From assembly GCF_020054945.1 (NCBI RefSeq), contig NZ_JAIHAU010000006.1, positions 1 through 49,008 of the forward strand: a stretch of DNA of 49,008 nt, in the 5' to 3' direction. Positions 2,418-28,358 of this stretch are shown here, piece by piece. Every line of letters starts with the position of its first letter. The stretch's first letter is position 1. The DNA comes from Mahella sp. (GTDB taxonomy: Bacteria > Bacillota > Clostridia > Mahellales > Mahellaceae). Under the pieces are notes generated by a model. It saw only the letters and a program-made list of their open reading frames with translations, did no database searches and was not told the DNA's origin. The translations under genes were made by a program, and so were the position numbers.

Positions 2418-3821
2418 ATGGAGGCGATAAATATAATATTTTCGGAGACCACTATAGCGGCCATATCCACGCCAATAGGCGAGGGTGGTATAGGCATAGT
2501 ACGCTTAAGCGGGCCAAAAGCTATCGATATAGCTGATAGTATATTTATAAATATAAAGGGCCGGAAGATAAAAGATGCACCGAATCGGAGCATATTGTAC
2601 GGTCATATAAAAGATCCGGTTAGCGGCCACGATATAGATGAGGTACTGGTCAGCGTTATGCGCGGGCCACATTCGTATACCGGCGAGGACGTGGTAGAGA
2701 TAAGCGGTCACGGCGGCATGCTGCCTTTGCGAAGGGTGCTGGAGGCCGCTGTAAGGGAAGGGGCTGTTTTAGCTCAACCCGGTGAATTTACAAAACGCGC
2801 TTTTTTGAACGGACGAATCGATCTGGCGCAGGCTGAATCGGTCATGGATATAATATCGGCTAAAACCGACGTGGCCCTGACTAGTTCCGTTATGCAGCTC
2901 GAGGGCAAGCTGTCGGAGAGTATAGAAAAGATAAGGGCTGCGCTTTTGGATGTGCTGACGCATATAGAAGCGCTTATAGATTATCCCGAAGAGGATGTCG
3001 ATGAATTGAGCGCGGCGGATATGCGCAATAAGCTCGAAGGCGGGTATGACGACATAGAAAAGCTACTGGCTACGGCCGATACGGGCCGCATAATCCGCGA
3101 AGGTTTGAAGACTGCTATAATAGGCAGGCCTAATGTCGGCAAATCTTCGCTCCTGAATGCGCTGCTCAAGGCGGACAGGGCCATAGTTACCGATATACCT
3201 GGTACTACGCGCGACTTAATAGAGGACTATGTCAATGTGAACGGAATAGCGCTCAATATCATAGATACAGCCGGTATAAGAGAAGCGGCCGATGAGATAG
3301 AACGCATAGGCATTGAGAGAACGCGCGAGGCTGTTTACAGGGCCGACCTTGTTATATTTACGCTGGACGGATCGCAGCCCTTGCATCAAGACGATAGGAC
3401 TATAGCGTCGCTTATATCCTCTAAACAAGCCATAGTCGTATTGAACAAATCAGACCTTGGAATGATGGTAACAGAGGCTGAGGTGAACGCTGTTTTACCC
3501 GATGTACCGGTGATAGAAATGTCGCTTAAAGAAGGACATGGTCTCGAGGATTTGGAAAATGCGATAACAGATATGGTGTATCATGGCAAAGTTATAGCGT
3601 CGGATGAGGCTATGGTGACCAATGTAAGGCATAAAGAGGCTTTGATGTCGGCTGCCGAGGCACTGCAGAGATGCTTGGCTTCCATAGACGACGGTATGCC
3701 TATGGACCTTGTATCCGTCGACTTAAAAGATGCTATAGAGGCTCTGGGCCTCATAAGCGGAAAGACGGTGGAGGATGAAGTGGTAGACAGGATTTTTGAA
3801 CGCTTTTGTGTGGGGAAGTAG
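2418..3821 (+). CDS. mnmE: tRNA uridine-5-carboxymethylaminomethyl GTPase MnmE
   Basis: MnmE works with MnmG to modify U34 of certain tRNAs. The protein has the N-terminal formyl-tetrahydrofolate-binding part (I-A-A-I-S-T-P[13 protein letters not shown]), the central helical part, and a circularly placed Ras-like G domain. G motifs visible are G-R-P-N-V-G-K-S-S (near residue 235), P-G-T-T-R-D, D-T-A-G and N-K-S-D. It ends in the catalytic F-C-V-G-K with the conserved cysteine. I placed the start at ATG 2418 (GTG 2415 is equally open). However, GGAGG at 2420-2424 lies inside these codons, and family members usually begin close to the T-I-A-A-I-S-T segment. The true start could therefore lie a few codons further in, where only ATA codons are available. 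Confidence 0.95.
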
Positions 3822-3829
3822 ATATTTAC

Positions 3830-5704
3830 ATGGAATTTGAATTAAACACATACGATGTGATAGTGGTCGGCGCAGGCCATGCGGGATGTGAGGCGGCCCT
3901 TGCATCGGCGCGAATGGGCTGCAGGACGCTGGTATTAGCCATAAATTTGGATAGTATAGCCATGATGGCATGTAATCCGTCTATAGGCGGCACATCCAAA
4001 GGGCATCTGGTACGCGAGATAGATGCTTTGGGCGGGCAGATGGGTATAACCACGGATAAAACAACCATACAGGTGCGTATGCTTAATACGTCAAAAGGTC
4101 CGGCGGTGTATTCGCTGAGGGCTCAGATCGATAAGAAGGCTTATCAGGCTGTTATGAAGCAAACGCTGGAGCAACAGGATAATCTTGATGTAAAACAGGC
4201 CGAGGTGGTGCGCCTTTTGGTTGAGGAGGGCGCCGTACGTGGTGTCGTGACGCATACAGGTGCGATATATCGCGCCAAAGCTGTAATATTGACCACCGGC
4301 GTATATTTGAACGGTCGTGTGATAATAGGCGAGGTAAGCTATAGCAGCGGCCCCAACGGTATGTTTCCGGCCACGCATCTGTCGCAGGACCTTTTACTTT
4401 TAGGTATAAGGCTGCAGCGCTTTAAGACGGGTACGCCGGCCAGGGTAGCCGGCCGCAGCATAGATTTTTCAAAGATGGCGTTGCAGTTGGGCGATGAACC
4501 GCCCGTACCGTTCTCATTTATGGATGATAAACTGGATGTCAGGCAGGTGCCGTGCCATCTGACATACACCAACGAGCGGACGCATGAAATAATAAGGAGA
4601 AATCTGCATCGATCGCCGCTTTTTTCGGGCGATATAAAAGGTGTGGGGCCGCGATATTGCCCTTCCATTGAGGATAAGGTGGTGCGCTTTGCCGACAAAC
4701 CCAGCCATCAGATATTCATAGAGCCGGAGGGATTGAATACCGATGAGATGTATGTCCAAGGAATGTCCAGCAGCCTGCCCGAGGATGTGCAGATCGAGAT
4801 GTTGCGCTCGATAGCCGGTTTGGAGCATGTTGAGGTAATGCGGCCGGCTTATGCCATAGAGTATGATTGCATAGACCCGACACAGCTCAAACTGTCGCTT
4901 GAGCTGAAGCATATACGCGGCCTGTTTACAGCCGGTCAGATAAACGGCAGCTCGGGCTATGAGGAGGCCGCGGCCCAGGGCATTATGGCCGGCATAAATG
5001 CCGCGCGCATGATACAGGGCAGACCGCCCGTTATATTGGACCGCTCACAGGCCTATATAGGCGTCCTTATAGACGACCTGGTCACCAAGGGTACTGCCGA
5101 GCCGTATCGCATGATGACATCGCGCGCCGAGTACCGCCTTTTGCTCCGCCAGGATAATGCCGATATGAGGTTGACGCCTGTAGGATATGATATAGGATTG
5201 GTCGGCGCTGACCGCTACGGGCGGTATTTGCTTAAGAAGGATCAGGTGCAAAGTGAGTTGGAGCGCTTGAAAAGTACCATTATAGCGCCCGATGCGGAGG
5301 TAAACGAGCTTTTGGATAAGCTGTCCAGCCAACCTGTAAAGACCGGCATAACCCTCTACGATCTGATCAAGCGGCCCGAGATAAGCTATGCTATGCTGGC
5401 ACCTATCGATAAGGGCAGACCGCCGGATCTGTTACCGCAGGCTATAGAACAGGTGGAGATTAATATCAAGTATGAGGGCTATATCGCCAGACAAAGGATG
5501 CAGATAGAGCGGTTTAAGAAGATGGAGGACCATAAACTGCCCGACGATATAGATTACGCCACCATAAAAGGCCTGCGCATAGAAGCGCGCCAGAAGTTGG
5601 ACAGGATAAGGCCGCAGTCGATCGGGCAGGCATCGCGCATATCGGGCGTGTCGCCCGCCGATATATCAGTGCTGCTTATATATTTGAAGCAGCACGGGCT
5701 GTAG
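3830..5704 (+). CDS. mnmG: tRNA uridine-5-carboxymethylaminomethyl modification enzyme MnmG (GidA)
   Basis: MnmG is the FAD- and NADH-dependent partner of MnmE in making cmnm5U34 in tRNA. The 624-residue protein starts with the dinucleotide-binding fold [14 protein letters not shown]. It continues with the family signature G-P-x-Y-C-P-S-I-E-D-K near residue 275 and a second family block [16 protein letters not shown] near residue 365. The C-terminal helical domain that binds MnmE follows. Length matches the family. An open frame extends upstream to 3806 into mnmE, but ATG 3830 gives the normal N-terminus. It starts 8 bases after mnmE and is 10 bases from rsmG, so the three form one transcription unit. 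Confidence 0.96.
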
Positions 5705-6478: not shown

Positions 6479-8239
6479 ATGTTTATAAAATTAATAGCGC
6501 TAAATTCCAGTTTTACCCATACTGCGGTGGCCCTATATCAGCTCGAAGCGGCCGCGACTGGCATAGGTAATATAAAAATACAAGAATTTACAATAAATGA
6601 TGGAATAGATTATGTTCTTGGAGAAATATATTCAAGCAGGCCGGATGTAGTTGGATTTTCATGCTATATATGGAATATAGATATGATATGGCGGCTATGC
6701 TCGGCGCTTAAGAAAGTATTACCGGATGTTACGATAATACTGGGCGGTCCTGAGGTATCATATGATGCCAGGGAACTGCTCGAGCGGCATAATGAGGTCG
6801 ATTATATAGTATGCGGCGAAGGAGAAGGGGTCTTTGCAGAACTGCTAAAGCGGTTGAAAGATGGCAGGAGGTTAGCCGATGGGATAGAAGGCGTATACTA
6901 TCGCAATGGCGATGTTATTTGCGGTGCTGGTTTTGCCGTAGTGGCTCATATGGATGATATACCTGGCATGGCCGATGCCGTGGACCATATAGACGCCGCA
7001 AACAGGATAGTGTATTATGAAACCTCGAGGGGTTGCCCTTTCAAGTGCTCATATTGCCTGTCCTCCACCATCGATGGCATAAGGTATGTGCCTATGGCTC
7101 GCGTCAAAGATGATCTTATACGTATAATGCGGTCAGGCGCAAAGCAGGTCAAGTTTCTGGATCGTACCTTTAATGCTCATAAACGCCGCGCCATGGATAT
7201 ATGGCGCTTTATAGCCGATTATGATAAAAGACCGGAAGGCATGAGGTTTCATTTTGAGATATGCGCCGATATAATGGACGACGATATGCTGGCATTTCTT
7301 TCATCCATACCCAATGGATTGTTTCAGTTTGAGATAGGCATACAGTCAGCAAATGATTTATCCCTTGAGGCCGTCGGGCGCCGCGTTGATTTGGATCACC
7401 TGGCGCATGTCGTCGGTATGCTGGCGCGGTGCGGCAACATACACCTGCATTTGGATCTCATAGCCGGACTGCCAAAAGAGGATCTTCAATCATTTGGCCG
7501 TTCCTTTGATTATGCATATGAATTGAGACCGGATGTCTTGCAGCTTGGTTTCCTGAAGCTACTCAAAGGTTCCGGGCTGCGTAATACGGCTGAACGATTC
7601 GGTTATGCATACGACGACTATCCACCATATGAGGTGCTGTCCAATGACAGCATAAGTTTCGATGAGCTTTGCAAGCTGCACTGGGTAGAAGATGTGTTGA
7701 ATAAATACTACAATAGCGGCAGGCTGGTACACACGTTGAACTATATCATAAAAAACTTTCATCGTAGCGCTTTTGATTTTTACTGCCTGCTGGGCTGTTA
7801 TTGGCATGATAGAGGCTATTACGGATACAAGCATAGGGATGAGGCATTGTACAGTATAATGGCGGATTTTGCCCGCTGTTCCGGTTATGAGCCTATTGGG
7901 CTCATACATGAGCTGATTCGCCTTGATTATCTCTTTAAGCATCCGGCTATGTCGCATCCCACGTGGACGACGCCTTCGCGCGATGAACGAGCAAAAGCCG
8001 TGCAGAGGGCCATTCTCGATAATGAATGCATCGTGCGGAAATATATGCCGCATTTTGTGGATGTTGATCCCAAGCTTATAAGAAAGTATGCATATGTGGA
8101 GCATTTTGAATACGATATACCATCCATCATTTCCTCCGGTTATACCGCTCAACCTGTGTCAAAGCCGGTATGGCTGCTCATAGATACCGTTGCCGGCAAA
8201 GTCTTTGATGTTTCACGTGAAACAACCGCTGGGGAATAA
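6479..8239 (+). CDS. B12-binding domain radical SAM protein (DUF4080-type)
   Basis: The 586-residue protein combines an N-terminal cobalamin-binding-type Rossmann domain (about 1-140, with G-G-P-E-V and the C-G-E-G-E segment) with a radical SAM barrel. The barrel's iron-sulfur motif is C186-x3-C190-x2-C193 (R-G-C-P-F-K-C-S-Y-C). The remaining C-terminal part of about 200 residues resembles the DUF4080 extension common in clostridial members. The canonical cobalamin His in D-x-H-x-x-G is not visible, so this domain may not hold B12. The substrate is unknown. It follows rsmG by 41 bases with a weak GAGG ribosome binding site, and the next gene is a polyprenyl synthase. A perfect parS site is embedded in the last codons (8209-8224, encoding V-S-R-E-T). 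Confidence 0.85.
   Translation: MFIKLIALNSSFTHTAVALYQLEAAATGIGNIKIQEFTINDGIDYVLGEIYSSRPDVVGFSCYIWNIDMIWRLCSALKKVLPDVTIILGGPEVSYDARELLERHNEVDYIVCGEGEGVFAELLKRLKDGRRLADGIEGVYYRNGDVICGAGFAVVAHMDDIPGMADAVDHIDAANRIVYYETSRGCPFKCSYCLSSTIDGIRYVPMARVKDDLIRIMRSGAKQVKFLDRTFNAHKRRAMDIWRFIADYDKRPEGMRFHFEICADIMDDDMLAFLSSIPNGLFQFEIGIQSANDLSLEAVGRRVDLDHLAHVVGMLARCGNIHLHLDLIAGLPKEDLQSFGRSFDYAYELRPDVLQLGFLKLLKGSGLRNTAERFGYAYDDYPPYEVLSNDSISFDELCKLHWVEDVLNKYYNSGRLVHTLNYIIKNFHRSAFDFYCLLGCYWHDRGYYGYKHRDEALYSIMADFARCSGYEPIGLIHELIRLDYLFKHPAMSHPTWTTPSRDERAKAVQRAILDNECIVRKYMPHFVDVDPKLIRKYAYVEHFEYDIPSIISSGYTAQPVSKPVWLLIDTVAGKVFDVSRETTAGE
8209..8224. other. parS centromere site inside a coding region
   Basis: The 16-bp palindrome TGTTTCACGTGAAACA is an exact copy of the ParB/Spo0J parS consensus. 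It lies in the final codons of the radical SAM gene. A second exact copy is at 11382-11397, beside parB. ParB-CTP loads at such sites and spreads, then recruits SMC and ParA for chromosome segregation. Confidence 0.93.
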
Positions 8240-21175: not shown

Positions 21176-23626
21176 TTATTCTACGCCGCGGTAATAATGT
21201 CCTCTGGTCATGTTGCTGCTGCACAGGCCTTTGAGCCCATCGTCATCGCTGTCTAGCGCCTTTTTATAAAGGGATACGATGCGTTCGATGCCTTCACCGT
21301 CATAGCCGCTGAGATCGAGACGTAGGCTGTAAGGATGAAGCGGCAGCAGATCTTTTATTTTATCGGCCATGCATAATTCATAGGCGTTGAGTATTTCTAT
21401 ATAGCAACCGGATTTGTTGAGATATGTGCGAACGGGTAAAGATTTGCCCTTCCTGTCGCGTAGGCTGTAGCTATGCTTTATGCACTGTTTGGAACAAGTC
21501 CGCCCATGGCTCAAATGCGCGGCTATCGCACCTATCGGGCAGCCCTCGGCTACCATCAAAGGCAGGCGACCGTGAATTATGAGCTCCATCGGTATAGGGC
21601 TGCCCGATGAGAGAACGCGTATCTGATCCAGCGTCAGCTCGAGCGACGGCGTAAAGCGCCTTATGCCCATGCAGGCGTAAGCGGCCGCGGCGCTGCTGTT
21701 GAATATGTTAAGGGGAAAATCGCCGTATATAGACTCTATACCGGCATCTTTGGCGCATCTTATCTGGCCTGTATCCGATACCAGCACGCCATTGTAGAGA
21801 TTCCTTGCCGATGCCAGAGAGTCTTTTATATTGTCCAGATCCCGATCGCGGGCTATGCGGGGCATAGCCCATATTACCGGTATGCCGGCGTCGTGGCATA
21901 GCAATACCCACGGCATAGCGCGTTGGCCTACAGCTTGCATGGCGTTCAGGCGCAAGTATATACCGTCGGCGCCGGCCTTTATAGCCGTTCCGATATGCTC
22001 GGGTTTATCCAGCATTACGTATATAAGCGGTCTTGCCGGAACGTTTACGCCTGCGGTTTCAATATGGCCGGAAGGGATTGCGGCAGTCTTTCTGTGCGTT
22101 TGATCTATTATCTCTTCAGCCAGTTGCTCAAGGGTCTGCCTTCGCATATCATTTACGGCTGATATTGGCAACCAGGCATTGGGCGAAAGCTTGACTTCTA
22201 TGCTGTTAAATCTGAAAGGCATATCGCCCACCCTGTTTATCTGCGCTGTAATGTGCTCTTTTTGCAACGGCGCATGCTCGGCCTGTTGTACGGTTCCGGC
22301 ACCCGTACATTTTACATAATGGCCGTTGCTATCCCATACCTCCATCGTAGGGAACCGGCCCTCCGCTATAGCGATGCGGGCGTTTACATCGATGCGGCGC
22401 TGTGTGGTTTTTAGCCATGCCTTCAGTTTTTTATCCAACTCGGCATCCGATGTCTTGTAAACATTTGCTCCCGGTCTAACCGGTTTATCGGTGCGTATAA
22501 ACACTTCCTGACCGGTATCGGCCTCCCTTATGGCTTGACCATTGCGCGTCATATAAGTCACTATTTGTCCGTGGCTGTAAGCGCCGTCCCTTATCTCTAT
22601 GCCATCGCCCAGCGATAAAGGCGCTTGCAATCCAAGGCCGATCATGTGGCGGTGTGGATTATAGGACTTGGCCATACCCAGCGGCACCCCCCAATTGTCG
22701 GGTTTTTCGGGGGATATCATGTCGATACCGCTTTTGCCGTAAATATATCCTTTGGAAAATCCGCCGCGATTAAAGACCTGCATAAGCTGCATCATATCCT
22801 CCGGGTCTATCAAAGGCCGGGTATCCGCTGCCAGCCTGTCCAGCGCTTTGCGATATTTGCTCGTGACCACCGCCACATACTCCGGGCTTTTCATGCGGCC
22901 TTCTATCTTTAATGCTGTTACGCCGGCATCAGCCAAAGCGGACAGATCCTCTATAAGGCATAGGTCCTTCATGCTCAAAAGATATTGAGGCGGATAGGAC
23001 ATCCCATTTTCATCCTGCAGGCTGTATAACATGCGACAAGGCTGGGCACATCGGCCGCGGTTGCCGCTGCGGCCGCCCATGAAACTGCTCATCAGGCACT
23101 GGCCGGAATAAGCATAGCACATGGCACCGTGTACAAAGGCCTCTATTTCTAAGCCGCTGGTCTGCGCCATATGCGATATTTCCTCCAGCGATAATTCACG
23201 TGCCGGTACCACCCTTTTAAATCCAAAATCCTTAAGCATAGTAGCGCCATATGCATTGTGTATGGTCATCTGTGTGCTGGCGTGCAATGGCATATCAGGC
23301 AAATATTTCTTGACAAGCGACGCTATGCCCATGTCCTGTACTATCAAACCATCGGCTCCAGATTCGTAGAGCATTTCAAGATATGATAGCAGCATATTGA
23401 ATTCATCATCGCGTACCAATGTGTTTACGGTTATATATACTTTAACGCCTCTGAGGTGGGCGTAGTTCAAAGCATATTTCAAGCTTTGGTCGTCGAAATT
23501 GCCGGCGTACTGGCGTGCGCTGAAAGCGCTGCCGCCCATGTAGACAGCGTTGGCACCGGCTTTTACAGCTGCCTCGAAAGCGTCCATGTCGCCGGCCGGA
23601 GCCAGGAGTTCCATCGTATTAGCCAT
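21176..23626 (-). CDS. Peptidase U32 family protein with DUF3656 region
   Basis: The 816-residue protein has an N-terminal U32 domain starting M-E-L-L-A-P-A-G-D-M-D-A-F. It contains the U32 signature E-A-F-V-H-G-A-M-C-Y-A-Y-S-G-Q-C-L-M-S near residue 170, and C-A-Q-P-C-R follows. A DUF3656-like middle and a second U32-like C-terminal half complete it, as in the long clostridial forms. U32 members include YegQ/RlhA, TrhP and collagenase-like proteins; several act in RNA hydroxylation rather than proteolysis, so a tRNA or rRNA modification role is possible. The start at ATG 23626 has no clear ribosome binding site; M5 is an alternative. Confidence 0.88.
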   Translation of the reverse strand: MANTMELLAPAGDMDAFEAAVKAGANAVYMGGSAFSARQYAGNFDDQSLKYALNYAHLRGVKVYITVNTLVRDDEFNMLLSYLEMLYESGADGLIVQDMGIASLVKKYLPDMPLHASTQMTIHNAYGATMLKDFGFKRVVPARELSLEEISHMAQTSGLEIEAFVHGAMCYAYSGQCLMSSFMGGRSGNRGRCAQPCRMLYSLQDENGMSYPPQYLLSMKDLCLIEDLSALADAGVTALKIEGRMKSPEYVAVVTSKYRKALDRLAADTRPLIDPEDMMQLMQVFNRGGFSKGYIYGKSGIDMISPEKPDNWGVPLGMAKSYNPHRHMIGLGLQAPLSLGDGIEIRDGAYSHGQIVTYMTRNGQAIREADTGQEVFIRTDKPVRPGANVYKTSDAELDKKLKAWLKTTQRRIDVNARIAIAEGRFPTMEVWDSNGHYVKCTGAGTVQQAEHAPLQKEHITAQINRVGDMPFRFNSIEVKLSPNAWLPISAVNDMRRQTLEQLAEEIIDQTHRKTAAIPSGHIETAGVNVPARPLIYVMLDKPEHIGTAIKAGADGIYLRLNAMQAVGQRAMPWVLLCHDAGIPVIWAMPRIARDRDLDNIKDSLASARNLYNGVLVSDTGQIRCAKDAGIESIYGDFPLNIFNSSAAAAYACMGIRRFTPSLELTLDQIRVLSSGSPIPMELIIHGRLPLMVAEGCPIGAIAAHLSHGRTCSKQCIKHSYSLRDRKGKSLPVRTYLNKSGCYIEILNAYELCMADKIKDLLPLHPYSLRLDLSGYDGEGIERIVSLYKKALDSDDDGLKGLCSSNMTRGHYYRGVE

Positions 23627-23757: not shown

Positions 23758-23786
23758 GTGCCAATAGCGTAAAAAGATGCTATAAT
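23758..23786 (+). promoter_or_regulatory. Original rlmD promoter, now facing the restriction-modification operon
   Basis: GTGCCA (23758-23763), 17 bases and TATAAT (23781-23786) form a plausible promoter. The -10 lies inside the left copy of the duplicated 70-bp segment and the -35 just outside it. In the right copy, in front of intact rlmD, the -10 is present at 26928-26933 but the bases at the -35 position (AAACAA) do not match. Confidence 0.5.
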
Positions 23787-23839
23787 ATATACAGCATTGA
23801 CATTAAACTTAAAATAAGCGAGGGCATATGGATATACCG
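23771..23839 (+). repeat. Left copy of about 70-bp direct repeat flanking the R-M operon
   Basis: The sequence from AAAAAGATGC to GATATACCG is repeated at 26918-26987 with a single difference (AAAC here, AAAAC there). It holds the -10 box, leader, ribosome binding site and first codons (M-D-I-P) of rlmD. Here the frame then diverges and stops after 18 codons at 23884, so it is a truncated rlmD start. Confidence 0.9.
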
Positions 23840-23891
23840 ATAATAGAGAATTTCGGACTATCGTGTCCAGATTTTATGCAGTGAGGGCAGA

Positions 23892-23996
23892 ATGTCCAGT
23901 ATAAAGCGGCATGGATGGTCATGGGCAATACCGGCAGATGCTGAGGAACCTAAAGATGCACGTGAATTAAGAAAAAGAAAGTATGAGGGGAGATAA
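23892..23996 (+). CDS. Small ORF at the head of the R-M operon, unknown
   Basis: A 34-codon frame starts at ATG 23892 four to five bases after GAGGG and directly follows the stop of the truncated rlmD copy. It encodes a basic peptide beginning M-S-S-I-K-R-H-G-W-S-W-A-I-P and ending R-K-R-K-Y-E-G-R. Its stop lies just before or overlaps the start region of the methylase gene, so it could couple translation. It may be a fragment of a larger gene carried with the insertion. I recognise no family. Confidence 0.35.
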   Translation: MSSIKRHGWSWAIPADAEEPKDARELRKRKYEGR

Positions 23997-24000
23997 CAAA

Positions 24001-24927
24001 TTGGAACTTGCAATTAATAGTCCTACTATATGTGCAAAACCTTTCGTAAAGTGGGCTGGAGGGAAAGGACAATTGCTCGACACTTTTAAACAGTATTATC
24101 CTTCAACGCTCCTTGAAGGTCGTATAAAACGTTATATAGAACCTTTCGTAGGAGGTGGAGCAGTTTTGTTTGAAATTTTGCAAAAGTATAAAATTGAAGA
24201 AGCTTTTATTTTTGATATAAATCAGGATTTAATTAACGCTTACATAGTGATTAAATATGATGTAGACATTCTAGTGGAATATCTTTTTAGTTTAGAGTGC
24301 AAATATTTAGATTTAAATGAAAAAGCCCGAAAAGAGATGTATTATGAAATAAGAGATACATACAATTCACGAATATTCAAAAGCGATCAGCCAGATATTG
24401 AACGGGCTGCACAATTTATTTTTCTGAATCGTACCTGCTTTAACGGACTTTACCGTGTTAATCGTGCAGGGCTTTTCAATGTACCACATGGAGATTATAA
24501 AAATCCAACTATCTGTGATGGGGAAAATTTGTATGCTGCAAGTTCTTTGCTTCAGAGGGTACATATTTTTACCGGTGACTATAGGGAGAGTATTAAATAT
24601 GCTGACAGGTATAGCTTCGTTTATTTTGATCCGCCGTACCGACCAATTAATGTTACATCTAGCTTTACATCCTATAGCAAGTTTGATTTTACAGATGAGG
24701 ATCAGGTAAAGCTTGCACATTTTTTTGCAGAAATGAATGATACAGGTGCTTTGATTATGTTAAGTAATTCCGATCCTAAGAATGAAAACCATGACGATAA
24801 CTTTTTTGATGAACTATATGGGAATTTTTATATACATAGGATAAAAGCAAAGCGGGCAATCAATTCAAACGGTGGACGAAGGGGATTAGTAAGCGAGATT
24901 CTTGTTACGAACTATAAAGTAAAATAA
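24001..24927 (+). CDS. DpnII/Dam-type N6-adenine DNA methyltransferase (D12 class)
   Basis: The roughly 308-residue protein is a D12-class (Dam-like) adenine methyltransferase. The SAM-binding segment P-F-V-K-W-A-G-G-K-G-Q-L-L at the N-terminus is followed by E-P-F-V-G-G-G-A-V-L-F near residue 48 and F-L-N-R-T-C-F-N-G-L-Y-R. The catalytic F-D-P-P-Y motif lies near residue 208. Together with the DpnII-family endonuclease next to it, it should methylate the A of GATC. Start: TTG 24001 lies about 8 bases after GAGGGGAG; ATG 23983 is in frame but has no site. The base composition is AT-richer than the host and the gene uses ATT more than ATA, which fits recent transfer. Confidence 0.9.
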   Translation: MELAINSPTICAKPFVKWAGGKGQLLDTFKQYYPSTLLEGRIKRYIEPFVGGGAVLFEILQKYKIEEAFIFDINQDLINAYIVIKYDVDILVEYLFSLECKYLDLNEKARKEMYYEIRDTYNSRIFKSDQPDIERAAQFIFLNRTCFNGLYRVNRAGLFNVPHGDYKNPTICDGENLYAASSLLQRVHIFTGDYRESIKYADRYSFVYFDPPYRPINVTSSFTSYSKFDFTDEDQVKLAHFFAEMNDTGALIMLSNSDPKNENHDDNFFDELYGNFYIHRIKAKRAINSNGGRRGLVSEILVTNYKVK

Positions 24928-24939
24928 TAGGAGGATGGC

Positions 24940-25872
24940 ATGAAATACTCAGATATTTTTAAAAATCGACTTGGATGTGCGAATACAGATGAGGTGTTTA
25001 AATACTTGCTTGACCATATGAAAGAGACAATTAAAAGTTGGGATTTTTTTGTTGCATGGGAAAAGGTGATGAATAAGGTGGGGAGTATCGAAGTTATATT
25101 AAATATTCTGAATTACCTTATTGGAAAGAAAAACGTAAAGGAAGAATTTAAAATACTGGTAGATAGGTATCCTGAAATAGTCGAGGTTCTACCTATTTTA
25201 CTTGCTTTAAGAGAGAAAAGCGTTAAAGTCCTCGAGCCATTTGAAGACAATGTTTTCAATTATAAAGAATACACGTTTCATAAAAAGAAGGAATATAGCC
25301 CTGATGAAATAGAATTGCTGGCCGAATTTGCTGAAAAGACTGGCCTTCTTGCAATGTTTGAAAAAAAGAACATAAAAAGTATTGTTGATTATGTAATTGG
25401 CGTTGAAGTAGGCCTTGACACTAATGCAAGGAAAAACCGAAGCGGAACGGCCATGGAGATGATAACCGAGTTGTTTATTAAAAAAATATGTACCGAAAAC
25501 AATTACCGGTATATATCACAAGCTACGTCGCACAAAATTGAGGCAGTTCTAGGATATAAAGTATCTGTAGATAAATCGGAACGTTCATTTGATTTTGCGA
25601 TAGATAATGGGTCCAAGCTATATCTCGTTGAAGCAAATTATTATAGCGGAGGCGGTTCAAAACTAAAGTCTGTAGCTGGAGAGTTCACAACACTGTTTAA
25701 CTTTCTAAAGAAAGAAACGCCGGAACACGGTTTTATTTGGATTACGGATGGTATAGGGTGGAAGACTGCAGAAAAACCTCTCAGAGAGGCATTTGATAAA
25801 GTAGATTATATACTTAATCTTAACATGGTACAAAGTGGTATTCTTGAGAATATTATATCGCAGGGGGTGTGA
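24940..25872 (+). CDS. DpnII/MboI-family type II restriction endonuclease
   Basis: The 310-residue protein resembles R.DpnII and R.MboI, which cut unmethylated GATC. The likely nuclease core is C-terminal: R-S-G-T-A-M-E (about 168-174), R-S-F-D-F-A-I-D near 208-216, then L-Y-L-V-E-A-N-Y-Y-S-G-G-G-S-K, which fits a D...E-x-N/K type active site. The N-terminal 150 residues are helical. It starts 13 bases after the methylase gene with AGGAGG, and its stop overlaps the region before the second methylase, so the three genes form one operon. Family assignment is from recalled similarity plus the gene order, not a database search. Confidence 0.85.
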   Translation: MKYSDIFKNRLGCANTDEVFKYLLDHMKETIKSWDFFVAWEKVMNKVGSIEVILNILNYLIGKKNVKEEFKILVDRYPEIVEVLPILLALREKSVKVLEPFEDNVFNYKEYTFHKKKEYSPDEIELLAEFAEKTGLLAMFEKKNIKSIVDYVIGVEVGLDTNARKNRSGTAMEMITELFIKKICTENNYRYISQATSHKIEAVLGYKVSVDKSERSFDFAIDNGSKLYLVEANYYSGGGSKLKSVAGEFTTLFNFLKKETPEHGFIWITDGIGWKTAEKPLREAFDKVDYILNLNMVQSGILENIISQGV

Positions 25873-25877
25873 GGGTT

Positions 25878-26867
25878 ATGTCAAAAAAAGTTAAGTGCTC
25901 GTATTGTGGCCAAAAATATACCAGGACACAATATCCTGAACATCTTGAAAAGAGTCACAATGATGGGTATATTATGCTTATTGATAGAATAAAGAATGAC
26001 TATCAAGATGGGTACAGTGTAAAAGATATAGCAGCTAATAATTACATTACAGAAGCATTTGTTAAAAGAGTGGCAAAGCAATCAACGCTGCTCGTTAAAG
26101 AGAATACGGAAAGCTATTCTGCCCAAAAATCGAATATCAAATCATGGGAACCAGATAACTTCGATCTTGAGACAACCACTGTATGGAGCTTTCCTAACAG
26201 GGGTGACTGGGCTACGCACAGCGGTAAATACAGAGGCAATTGGTCGCCTTTTATTCCAAGAAATGTTATTTTACGCTATTCTAATGAAAGCGAAACTGTG
26301 CTCGACCAATTCGTGGGAAGCGGGACAACACTTGTTGAAGCAAAGCTTTTGAAGAGAAAAGGAATTGGTGTTGATATAAACCCGAAAGCGGTAAATTTGA
26401 CGCGGGATAACATAAGCTTTGAAAGAGAAGGCTGTGGAGAGGTAGAAGTACATGTTGGAGATGCCAGGCATCTTGAATTTATCAACGATGAAAGCATAGA
26501 TCTTATATGCACTCATCCGCCTTATAGTAATATTATTAAGTATAGCGAAGACATACAGGGAGATCTTTCCCATTGTGATATCAATGACTTTCTTATAGAA
26601 ATGGGGAAGGTAGCAAAAGAGAGCTACAGGGTGCTGAAAAAAGATAAATTCTGTGCGATTCTTATTGGGGATACTCGGAGAAAGGGTCACATGATTCCCA
26701 TTGGTTTCAATGTAATGGAGACGTTTTTACGCGCAGGCTTTAAGTTAAAGGAAATTGTAATAAAGGAACAACATAATTGCAGTTCAACCAGTTACTGGAT
26801 AAACAAGAGTATAAAGTATAATTTTTTATTAATAGCACATGAGTATTTATTCATATTTAATAAATGA
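25878..26867 (+). CDS. DNA methyltransferase with N-terminal C2H2 zinc finger
   Basis: The 329-residue protein opens with a C2H2-type finger (C7-x2-C10-x11-H22-x4-H27). A small helix-turn-helix-like stretch follows (Y-S-V-K-D-I-A-A-N-N-Y-I-T-E), then a methyltransferase domain. That domain has R-G-D-W-A-T-H-S-G-K-Y-R-G-N-W-S-P and SAM motif I D-Q-F-V-G-S-G-T-T-L-V-E-A. The catalytic motif reads T-H-P-P-Y, as in N4-cytosine or some N6-adenine enzymes. Motif I precedes the catalytic motif. As third gene of a DpnII-type operon it stands where a second adenine methylase (DpnA) is expected, but it is not an obvious DpnA. Start ATG 25878 lies 10 bases after AGGGGG. Confidence 0.8.
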   Translation: MSKKVKCSYCGQKYTRTQYPEHLEKSHNDGYIMLIDRIKNDYQDGYSVKDIAANNYITEAFVKRVAKQSTLLVKENTESYSAQKSNIKSWEPDNFDLETTTVWSFPNRGDWATHSGKYRGNWSPFIPRNVILRYSNESETVLDQFVGSGTTLVEAKLLKRKGIGVDINPKAVNLTRDNISFEREGCGEVEVHVGDARHLEFINDESIDLICTHPPYSNIIKYSEDIQGDLSHCDINDFLIEMGKVAKESYRVLKKDKFCAILIGDTRRKGHMIPIGFNVMETFLRAGFKLKEIVIKEQHNCSSTSYWINKSIKYNFLLIAHEYLFIFNK

Positions 26868-26917
26868 GTATAAAAAGAAGGCTTTACAGGTCATTCAATG
26901 CCTGAAACAAATGATGC

Positions 26918-26987
26918 AAAAAGATGCTATAATATATACAGCATTGACATTAAAACTTAAAATAAGCGAGGGCATATGGATATACCG
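26918..26987 (+). repeat. Right copy of about 70-bp direct repeat flanking the R-M operon
   Basis: This copy is joined to the intact rlmD gene and runs from AAAAAGATGC through the first codons to GATATACCG. It differs from the left copy (23771-23839) by one inserted A. The TATAAT at 26928-26933 is kept, but the original -35 region is not. Confidence 0.9.
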
Positions 26988-28358
26988 GTAAAGGTTGATA
27001 GTGTATATGAAATGGTTATAGAGGATATGGGCAGCGATGGCGAAGGCATAGGCCATGTGACGGGCTTTACTGTTTTTGTCCCGGGAGCCATTATAGGCGA
27101 CAGAATATCGGCCAGAATAGATAAAGTGAGCAAGCGATATGCCGTAGGCCATCTGGTATCTATTATCGAGCCATCCGACTACCGCATACAGCCGCCGTGC
27201 CCGGTGGCGAACCGTTGCGGGGGATGCCACATACAGACCATGGCCTACGATGCCCAATTGGCTTATAAAACGCGGCGTGTGAAGGATGCGCTGCAGCGCA
27301 TAGGCGGTTTGGACGATGTGCCGGTATTGGATACCATAGGCATGGAAAGCCCGTGGCGTTATAGAAACAAAGCGCAATTGCCTGTGGGCGTTTCTTCCGG
27401 CAGGCCGGTTATGGGCTTTTTTGCTGCAGATACGCACGATATAGTTGATATAAATGCTTGTCCTATACAGCACCCGGCGGTTGACGGCGTGATAAAAACG
27501 GTCAAAGACTATATTAGCAGGTATAATGTGCCAATATACGACGAAATGACGGGTAAAGGTCTGCTGCGCCACATAATGGTGCGCGTTGGCTTTAACAGCG
27601 GGCAGGTAATGGTAGTGCCGGTTATAAACGGCGATTCGATACCATATGCTGAGCAGTTTGTGGATATGCTACAGCAAAACGTAAACGGCCTCACATCAGT
27701 GGCACTTAACATAAATCGTCAGCGTACCAATGTCATATTGGGCAGCCAATGCAAAGTGATATATGGTAGCGATCATATAACAGATACATTGTGTGGCCTC
27801 GTATTTAAGATATCGCCTCTGTCGTTCTTCCAGGTAAACCCCAGGCAAACCGAGGTATTGTACACAAAAGCCGTCGAATATGCCGCCTTGGATGGCACGC
27901 AGACTGTGCTCGACGCCTATTGCGGCATAGGCACCATATCGCTTTTGGCGGCTAAAAGGACGAGAAAGGTGTACGGTATAGAAGAGGTGCCGCAAGCTAT
28001 AGAGGATGCAAGGGATAATGCGCACGTGAACGGTATAGATAACGCCGAGTTTATATGCGGTAAGGCCGAGGAAGTTATAGCCGGTTTTATAGAAGAAGGC
28101 GTACATATCGACGTTATAATAATGGATCCGCCGCGCAAGGGCTGCGATGAGGCTTTCCTCGAAGCGGCTGTGCGCCTGGCTCCGGACTGCATGGTGTACG
28201 TCTCATGCAACCCGGCTACCCTGGCCCGCGACATGCGCTTTTTATGCGAGCACGGCTATAAAGCCACGGCAGTCCAGCCTGTTGATATGTTCCCGCACAC
28301 AGTACACGTTGAGTGCGTGATTCTGATGCAGCGTAGTGGTTTGGAAGACGAAAAATAG
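26976..28358 (+). CDS. rlmD: 23S rRNA (uracil-5-)-methyltransferase RlmD/RumA-like
   Basis: The 460-residue protein belongs to the TrmA/RlmD family, which makes m5U in 23S rRNA or tRNA. It has an N-terminal TRAM domain (about 1-60) and the iron-sulfur cysteines C-x5-C-G-G-C near residues 74-83. The SAM motif V-L-D-A-Y-C-G-I-G-T follows near 310, then I-M-D-P-P-R-K-G-C. The catalytic S-C-N-P-A-T-L-A-R-D lies near 409-418. The C-terminus H-V-E-C-V-I-L is the segment many clostridial and streptococcal mobile elements use as attachment site. It is intact here. Its promoter region has been duplicated by insertion of the R-M operon, and a conjugative element begins shortly after its stop. Confidence 0.9.
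   Translation: MDIPVKVDSVYEMVIEDMGSDGEGIGHVTGFTVFVPGAIIGDRISARIDKVSKRYAVGHLVSIIEPSDYRIQPPCPVANRCGGCHIQTMAYDAQLAYKTRRVKDALQRIGGLDDVPVLDTIGMESPWRYRNKAQLPVGVSSGRPVMGFFAADTHDIVDINACPIQHPAVDGVIKTVKDYISRYNVPIYDEMTGKGLLRHIMVRVGFNSGQVMVVPVINGDSIPYAEQFVDMLQQNVNGLTSVALNINRQRTNVILGSQCKVIYGSDHITDTLCGLVFKISPLSFFQVNPRQTEVLYTKAVEYAALDGTQTVLDAYCGIGTISLLAAKRTRKVYGIEEVPQAIEDARDNAHVNGIDNAEFICGKAEEVIAGFIEEGVHIDVIIMDPPRKGCDEAFLEAAVRLAPDCMVYVSCNPATLARDMRFLCEHGYKATAVQPVDMFPHTVHVECVILMQRSGLEDEK

Follow-up and report, generated by a model that had tools for sequence, protein, structure and literature searches.

A DpnII-type restriction-modification operon inserted with a 70-bp target duplication at the 5' end of rlmD in Mahella sp.

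Introduction

How restriction-modification (R-M) genes move without a recombinase has been an open question since the Helicobacter comparisons of 2000. Insertion of R-M genes with long target duplication was described in Helicobacter pylori (Nobusato et al., 2000; Furuta et al., 2010; both as cited in PMC1643837, PMC3031569 and PMC3874152). Movement of PaeR7I in E. coli involved rare illegitimate crossovers at 1-3 bp, while most events used host IS elements (PMC3031569), and a transposon-like R-M form with terminal inverted repeats and a short target duplication has been mentioned (PMC3874152).

A locus of Mahella sp. raises the same question. The stretch of DNA analysed here, referred to as the window, comprises 49,008 nt (positions 1-49,008, forward strand) of contig NZ_JAIHAU010000006.1 (GCF_020054945.1), which belongs to a 2.16-Mb draft MAG of 75 contigs that is 86% complete. 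An earlier note on this DNA had described a DpnII-type operon between two copies of the 5' end of rlmD and had proposed a mobile R-M unit without a transposase. We therefore asked how the operon reached this site.

Results

Two copies of the rlmD 5' end flank the insert

The direct repeat occupies positions 23771-23839 (left copy) and 26918-26987 (right copy), both on the forward strand. The copies align over 70 columns with 69/70 identities, no mismatches and one indel, AAA on the left against AAAA on the right, in agreement with the near-identical repeat of about 70 bp that had been described. Their alignment scored 136, whereas 300 shuffles reached 29 at most, and the 70-mer was found at no other place in the 2.16-Mb draft genome. 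The repeat had been said to hold the -10 box, leader and first codons of rlmD; all of these are present, the -10 being an extended one (TGCTATAAT) and the Shine-Dalgarno sequence being included as well, while the -35 region lies outside the repeat. A match of ATAA to GTAA continues to 23844/26992 and is probably coincidence or microhomology. Upstream of 26918, the sequence match was no better than in shuffles, and no continuation of the duplication was found there.

The right copy leads, as the earlier note had it, into an intact rlmD (rumA; 26976-28358, forward strand) encoding the 23S rRNA m5U1939 methyltransferase (TIGR00479, E=2.3e-144). Also as described there, the frame that starts from the duplicated rlmD start in the left copy (23828-23884, forward strand) is a dead end of 18 codons followed by a stop, with the translation MDIPIIENFGLSCPDFMQ*. 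The duplication has left rlmD with its predicted extended -10, leader and start codon. The GC content of the insert is 36%, as compared to 50-51% in the neighbouring genes.

The insert carries a three-gene R-M operon

The insert encodes an operon of the DpnII/MboI family in the order M-R-M, all on the forward strand, and domain matches confirmed the three-gene assignment made earlier. M1 (23983-24927) is a D12-class adenine methyltransferase of the DpnM/Dam type (PF02086, TIGR00571) whose best structure match is DpnM (PDB 2dpm); its start is likely a TTG codon a little downstream of the listed ATG. R (24940-25872) is a DpnII/MboI-family restriction endonuclease (PF04556, E=8.5e-100; PADLOC REase_II), and its position next to a D12 adenine methylase places the system in the DpnII/MboI type II group. 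M2 (25869-26867) is a second methyltransferase (N6_N4_Mtase; PF01555, PDLC03376) with a Cys2-His2-like N-terminal extension. This motif (window 25869-26150) is not part of the 249-residue PADLOC methylase model; M2 matches that model over residues 90-332.

The nuclease is 83% identical to that of genome G347, which is probably C. thermocellum ATCC 27405. The related MboI-type operon Cthe_1511-1513 of C. thermocellum ATCC 27405 has been assigned to m6A at GATC (PMC6791906), and GATC is therefore also the likely recognition site of the window operon; by the same analogy, the system may be active. DpnII/MboI systems including Cthe_1511-1513 share with the window the D12 methylase, the DpnII-family nuclease and the second methylase in M-R-M order. 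Unlike them, the window operon has a truncated and frameshifted helix-turn-helix (HTH) leader and a zinc-finger-like M2 N-terminus.

Two congeners carry the empty site

To compare the locus with congeners, rlmD was sought in relatives, among them two genomes of the same genus (G001 and G002), one of which is Mahella australiensis 50-1 BON. In both, the gene for a U32-family peptidase, which is the left neighbour in the window (21176-23626, reverse strand), and rlmD adjoin with intergenic sequence alone between them, and no DpnII homologue was found in either genome. The comparison suggested in the earlier note thus returned an empty site with the same neighbours in two congeners without the R-M genes: the repeat is present as a single copy, the rlmD leader is uninterrupted, and neither congener carries both copies.

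Relative to the congeners, both window copies show an identical set of lineage-private differences (substitutions, a 7-bp difference and a G that is inserted as compared to G001), which indicates that the duplication arose in this Mahella lineage, later than the split from the congeners. The loss of one A is confined to the left copy, which identifies this copy as the derived one. The event had been called recent; this is borne out relative to the species split by the shared private differences, and in no other sense.

The left junction truncates the upstream region of the operon

Relatives of the operon that are 78-83% identical to it in DNA were found at unrelated positions in Acetivibrio straminisolvens (L069), in G347 and in MAGs, and horizontal transfer is the best explanation for the arrival of the operon. 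No target duplications were found at the closest operon relatives (G347, L069 and L065). Among further loci, L071 holds a decayed relative (2982-4846) in which the endonuclease gene is mostly deleted while M1 and M2 are largely kept, and in L068, which comes from a Fervidobacterium MAG, the gene for the second methylase (7057-7899) has the opposite orientation to M1 and R. A phage origin was rejected, as a single short unannotated record of a phage collection matched, at 36% identity, and IMG/VR gave nothing.

Several of the operon relatives share an AT-rich upstream segment that contains a promoter-like sequence and an HTH-leader relic. L083 and L086 have an HTH-M1 fusion, a call that rests on sequence similarity and weak matches, the Pfam matches in L083 being below the curated cut-offs and L086 having none. 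In the window, the relic (23840-23982, forward strand) is frameshifted and truncated at the left junction, which falls inside it, and the promoter-like part is absent; the -10, leader and start of rlmD stand in its place. A left element end near 23844, which had seemed to be conserved, was ruled out, since the similarity among the relatives continues for another 90-120 bp upstream, which places the truncation within the HTH relic. The absence of the upstream region common to relatives indicates that the left junction cost the operon its putative promoter region and its HTH leader. At the right end of the insert, some 50 bp (26868-26917, forward strand) had no match in relatives.

A promoter scan identified GTGCCA-17-TATAAT at 23758-23786 with TG before the -10. 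As the scan overall yielded no more sites than shuffled sequences, we infer only a probable promoter capture, in which the left copy of the rlmD promoter would drive transcription of the R-M operon.

Long flanking repeats recur at other DpnII-type loci

The best direct repeat between the 2.5-kb flanks was scored at 47 DpnII-type loci with usable flanks, and 120 random 2.9-kb segments from 20 genomes served as control. A score of at least 100 was reached at four of the 47 loci (the window, L079, L083 and L086) and of at least 45 at seven, while none of the 120 controls reached 45. The corresponding Fisher p-values (0.006 at 100 and 1e-4 at 45; 0.02 at 100 with the window left out) are indicative, as the loci are phylogenetically non-independent, there is overlap among the control segments and the thresholds were set after the scores had been seen. 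At 40 of the 47 loci, no flanking repeat above the control range was present.

The clearest of the other cases is L086 in genome G052, where 612 bp of the 3' end of an RluD-like gene (rluD) occur on both sides of the operon (598/612 identity). The sister genomes G018, which is about 97% identical to G052, and G105 carry one copy of the RluD-like gene and lack the operon at this position. A further insertion lies to the left of the truncated RluD-like copy in G052 and is absent from G018. The operon has the order HTH-M1, TIR, R, M2; the additional gene (L086 7642-8253) encodes a stand-alone TIR-domain protein between M1 and R with a weak match to a retron TIR effector model.

At L079 (3927-8747), a DpnII-type operon has a 627-bp repeat from a pilin-like gene on either side (89%), and one of the copies is truncated; this is only suggestive of a long target duplication, as it lies within a pilin-like paralog family. 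At L083, the repeat of about 195 bp (81%) is present in full length in genome G151 at the two flanks alone, while pieces of 30-40 bp recur, and no empty site was found for this locus. The weaker loci L148, L149, L159 and L082 have repeats of 27-58 bp. That of L082 was rejected as a target duplication because it is a terminator-like hairpin. The duplication length therefore varies from 70 bp in the window to 612 bp in G052, with the candidates at about 195 and 627 bp.

A probably integrase-independent insertion

No recombinase, integrase, transposase or IS was found among the ORFs of the insert. The insert also has no terminal inverted repeats (the two ends scored 13 against each other, a value that 36% of shuffles also reached), and no GATC site is located near either junction, so that cuts at GATC were rejected for the junctions. 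A search of the genome with PF00589, confined to tyrosine integrases, gave only two proteins, assigned by sequence and neighbours as XerD-like (beside a purine-nucleoside phosphorylase gene) and XerC-like (beside lexA). The search for an integrase acting at this site, which had also been proposed, thus yielded none in the insert and only these two elsewhere. Together, the empty sites and the lack of a recombinase in the insert support the earlier view of a mobile R-M unit without a transposase that was inserted with a long target duplication.

We consider it likely that a GATC-type R-M operon was inserted at the 5' end of rlmD in a single illegitimate event that was independent of an integrase and gave rise to a second copy of 70 bp of the target, with a fork switch as the most likely route. 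A replication or repair fork would have copied the chromosome rightward as far as the fourth rlmD codon and then switched to R-M DNA with little or no homology. Copying would subsequently have re-entered the chromosome 70 bp behind, which would yield target-insert-target without conserved ends. The joining step by fork or template switch is a proposal, as copying of this kind has left no diagnostic mark here and a Campbell-type integration would look similar.

In such a Campbell-type event, a circular molecule with the R-M operon and about 70 bp of rlmD leader would have entered the chromosome by a single crossover and produced the direct repeats. DpnII-type operons are found on small plasmids, and the final structure would be the same. 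However, as every lineage-private difference from the congeners is common to both copies, only this lineage itself could have supplied the donor copy, and an rlmD leader sequence lies next to the operon in none of the examined operon relatives; we regard this route as improbable. Still less probable is a tandem duplication of the leader into which the operon entered later, as it would lead to the same end state but neither congener has a tandem copy and the operon is positioned exactly at the duplication junction. The junctions are known from one draft assembly, and with 75 contigs and 86% completeness an R-M contig might have been stitched in at a shared 70-bp word. This is very improbable, as one indel sets the copies apart, the operon is connected to flanking sequence at either end, the insert holds a biologically sensible relic, and the analogous case in G052 is accompanied by sister-genome controls. 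A transposase or integrase acting in trans by a long staggered cut at rlmD would likewise give direct repeats at both ends, but we consider it the least credible explanation, given that the confirmed duplications of 70 and 612 bp are far above known transposase staggers and differ too much for one enzyme of fixed stagger, that terminal inverted repeats are missing, and that the PF00589 search, confined to tyrosine recombinases, gave only XerC- and XerD-like proteins.

Relation to known cases of R-M movement

Insertion with long target duplication is already known, though unexplained; new are the lineage, the apparent promoter replacement and the second polarised case. With the H. pylori cases, as far as these are cited in the three articles, the window shares R-M genes without a linked mobile element, a long and variable duplication in the order of 100 bp and a single-copy empty relative. 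It differs from them in the lineage (Mahella and class-level relatives), in the inclusion of the host -10 and start in the duplication and in the loss of the operon's putative promoter region, promoter capture being likely. Like PaeR7I, the window operon appears to have moved without a recombinase of its own, but host IS elements took part in most PaeR7I events and none is present in the window insert. The inverted repeats at the ends of the transposon-like form are absent from the insert as well.

To the question of R-M movement without a recombinase, the present data contribute a polarised case with empty sites in another lineage, a second one with two sister empty sites, and an enrichment test with control. 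The apparent promoter swap suggests why long duplications survive, as the target gene stays intact and the R-M operon would be expressible. We put forward only as a tentative, rather doubtful generalisation that DpnII-type operons of Clostridia may have spread repeatedly by copying and switching during host replication, duplicating 70-600 bp, with selection keeping those events that preserve the target and lend a promoter.

The region downstream of rlmD

The part of the window 3' of rlmD (28573-49008) is an ICE-like region that extends to the contig end. The rlmD/rumA gene is a known ICE site in streptococci. A second copy of the rlmD 3' end, which would be a candidate att site, was not found in the draft genome. 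The region encodes ArdA, a second D12 methylase, a T2SSE-type ATPase with pilus-like genes, and YodL and DUF3852 proteins.
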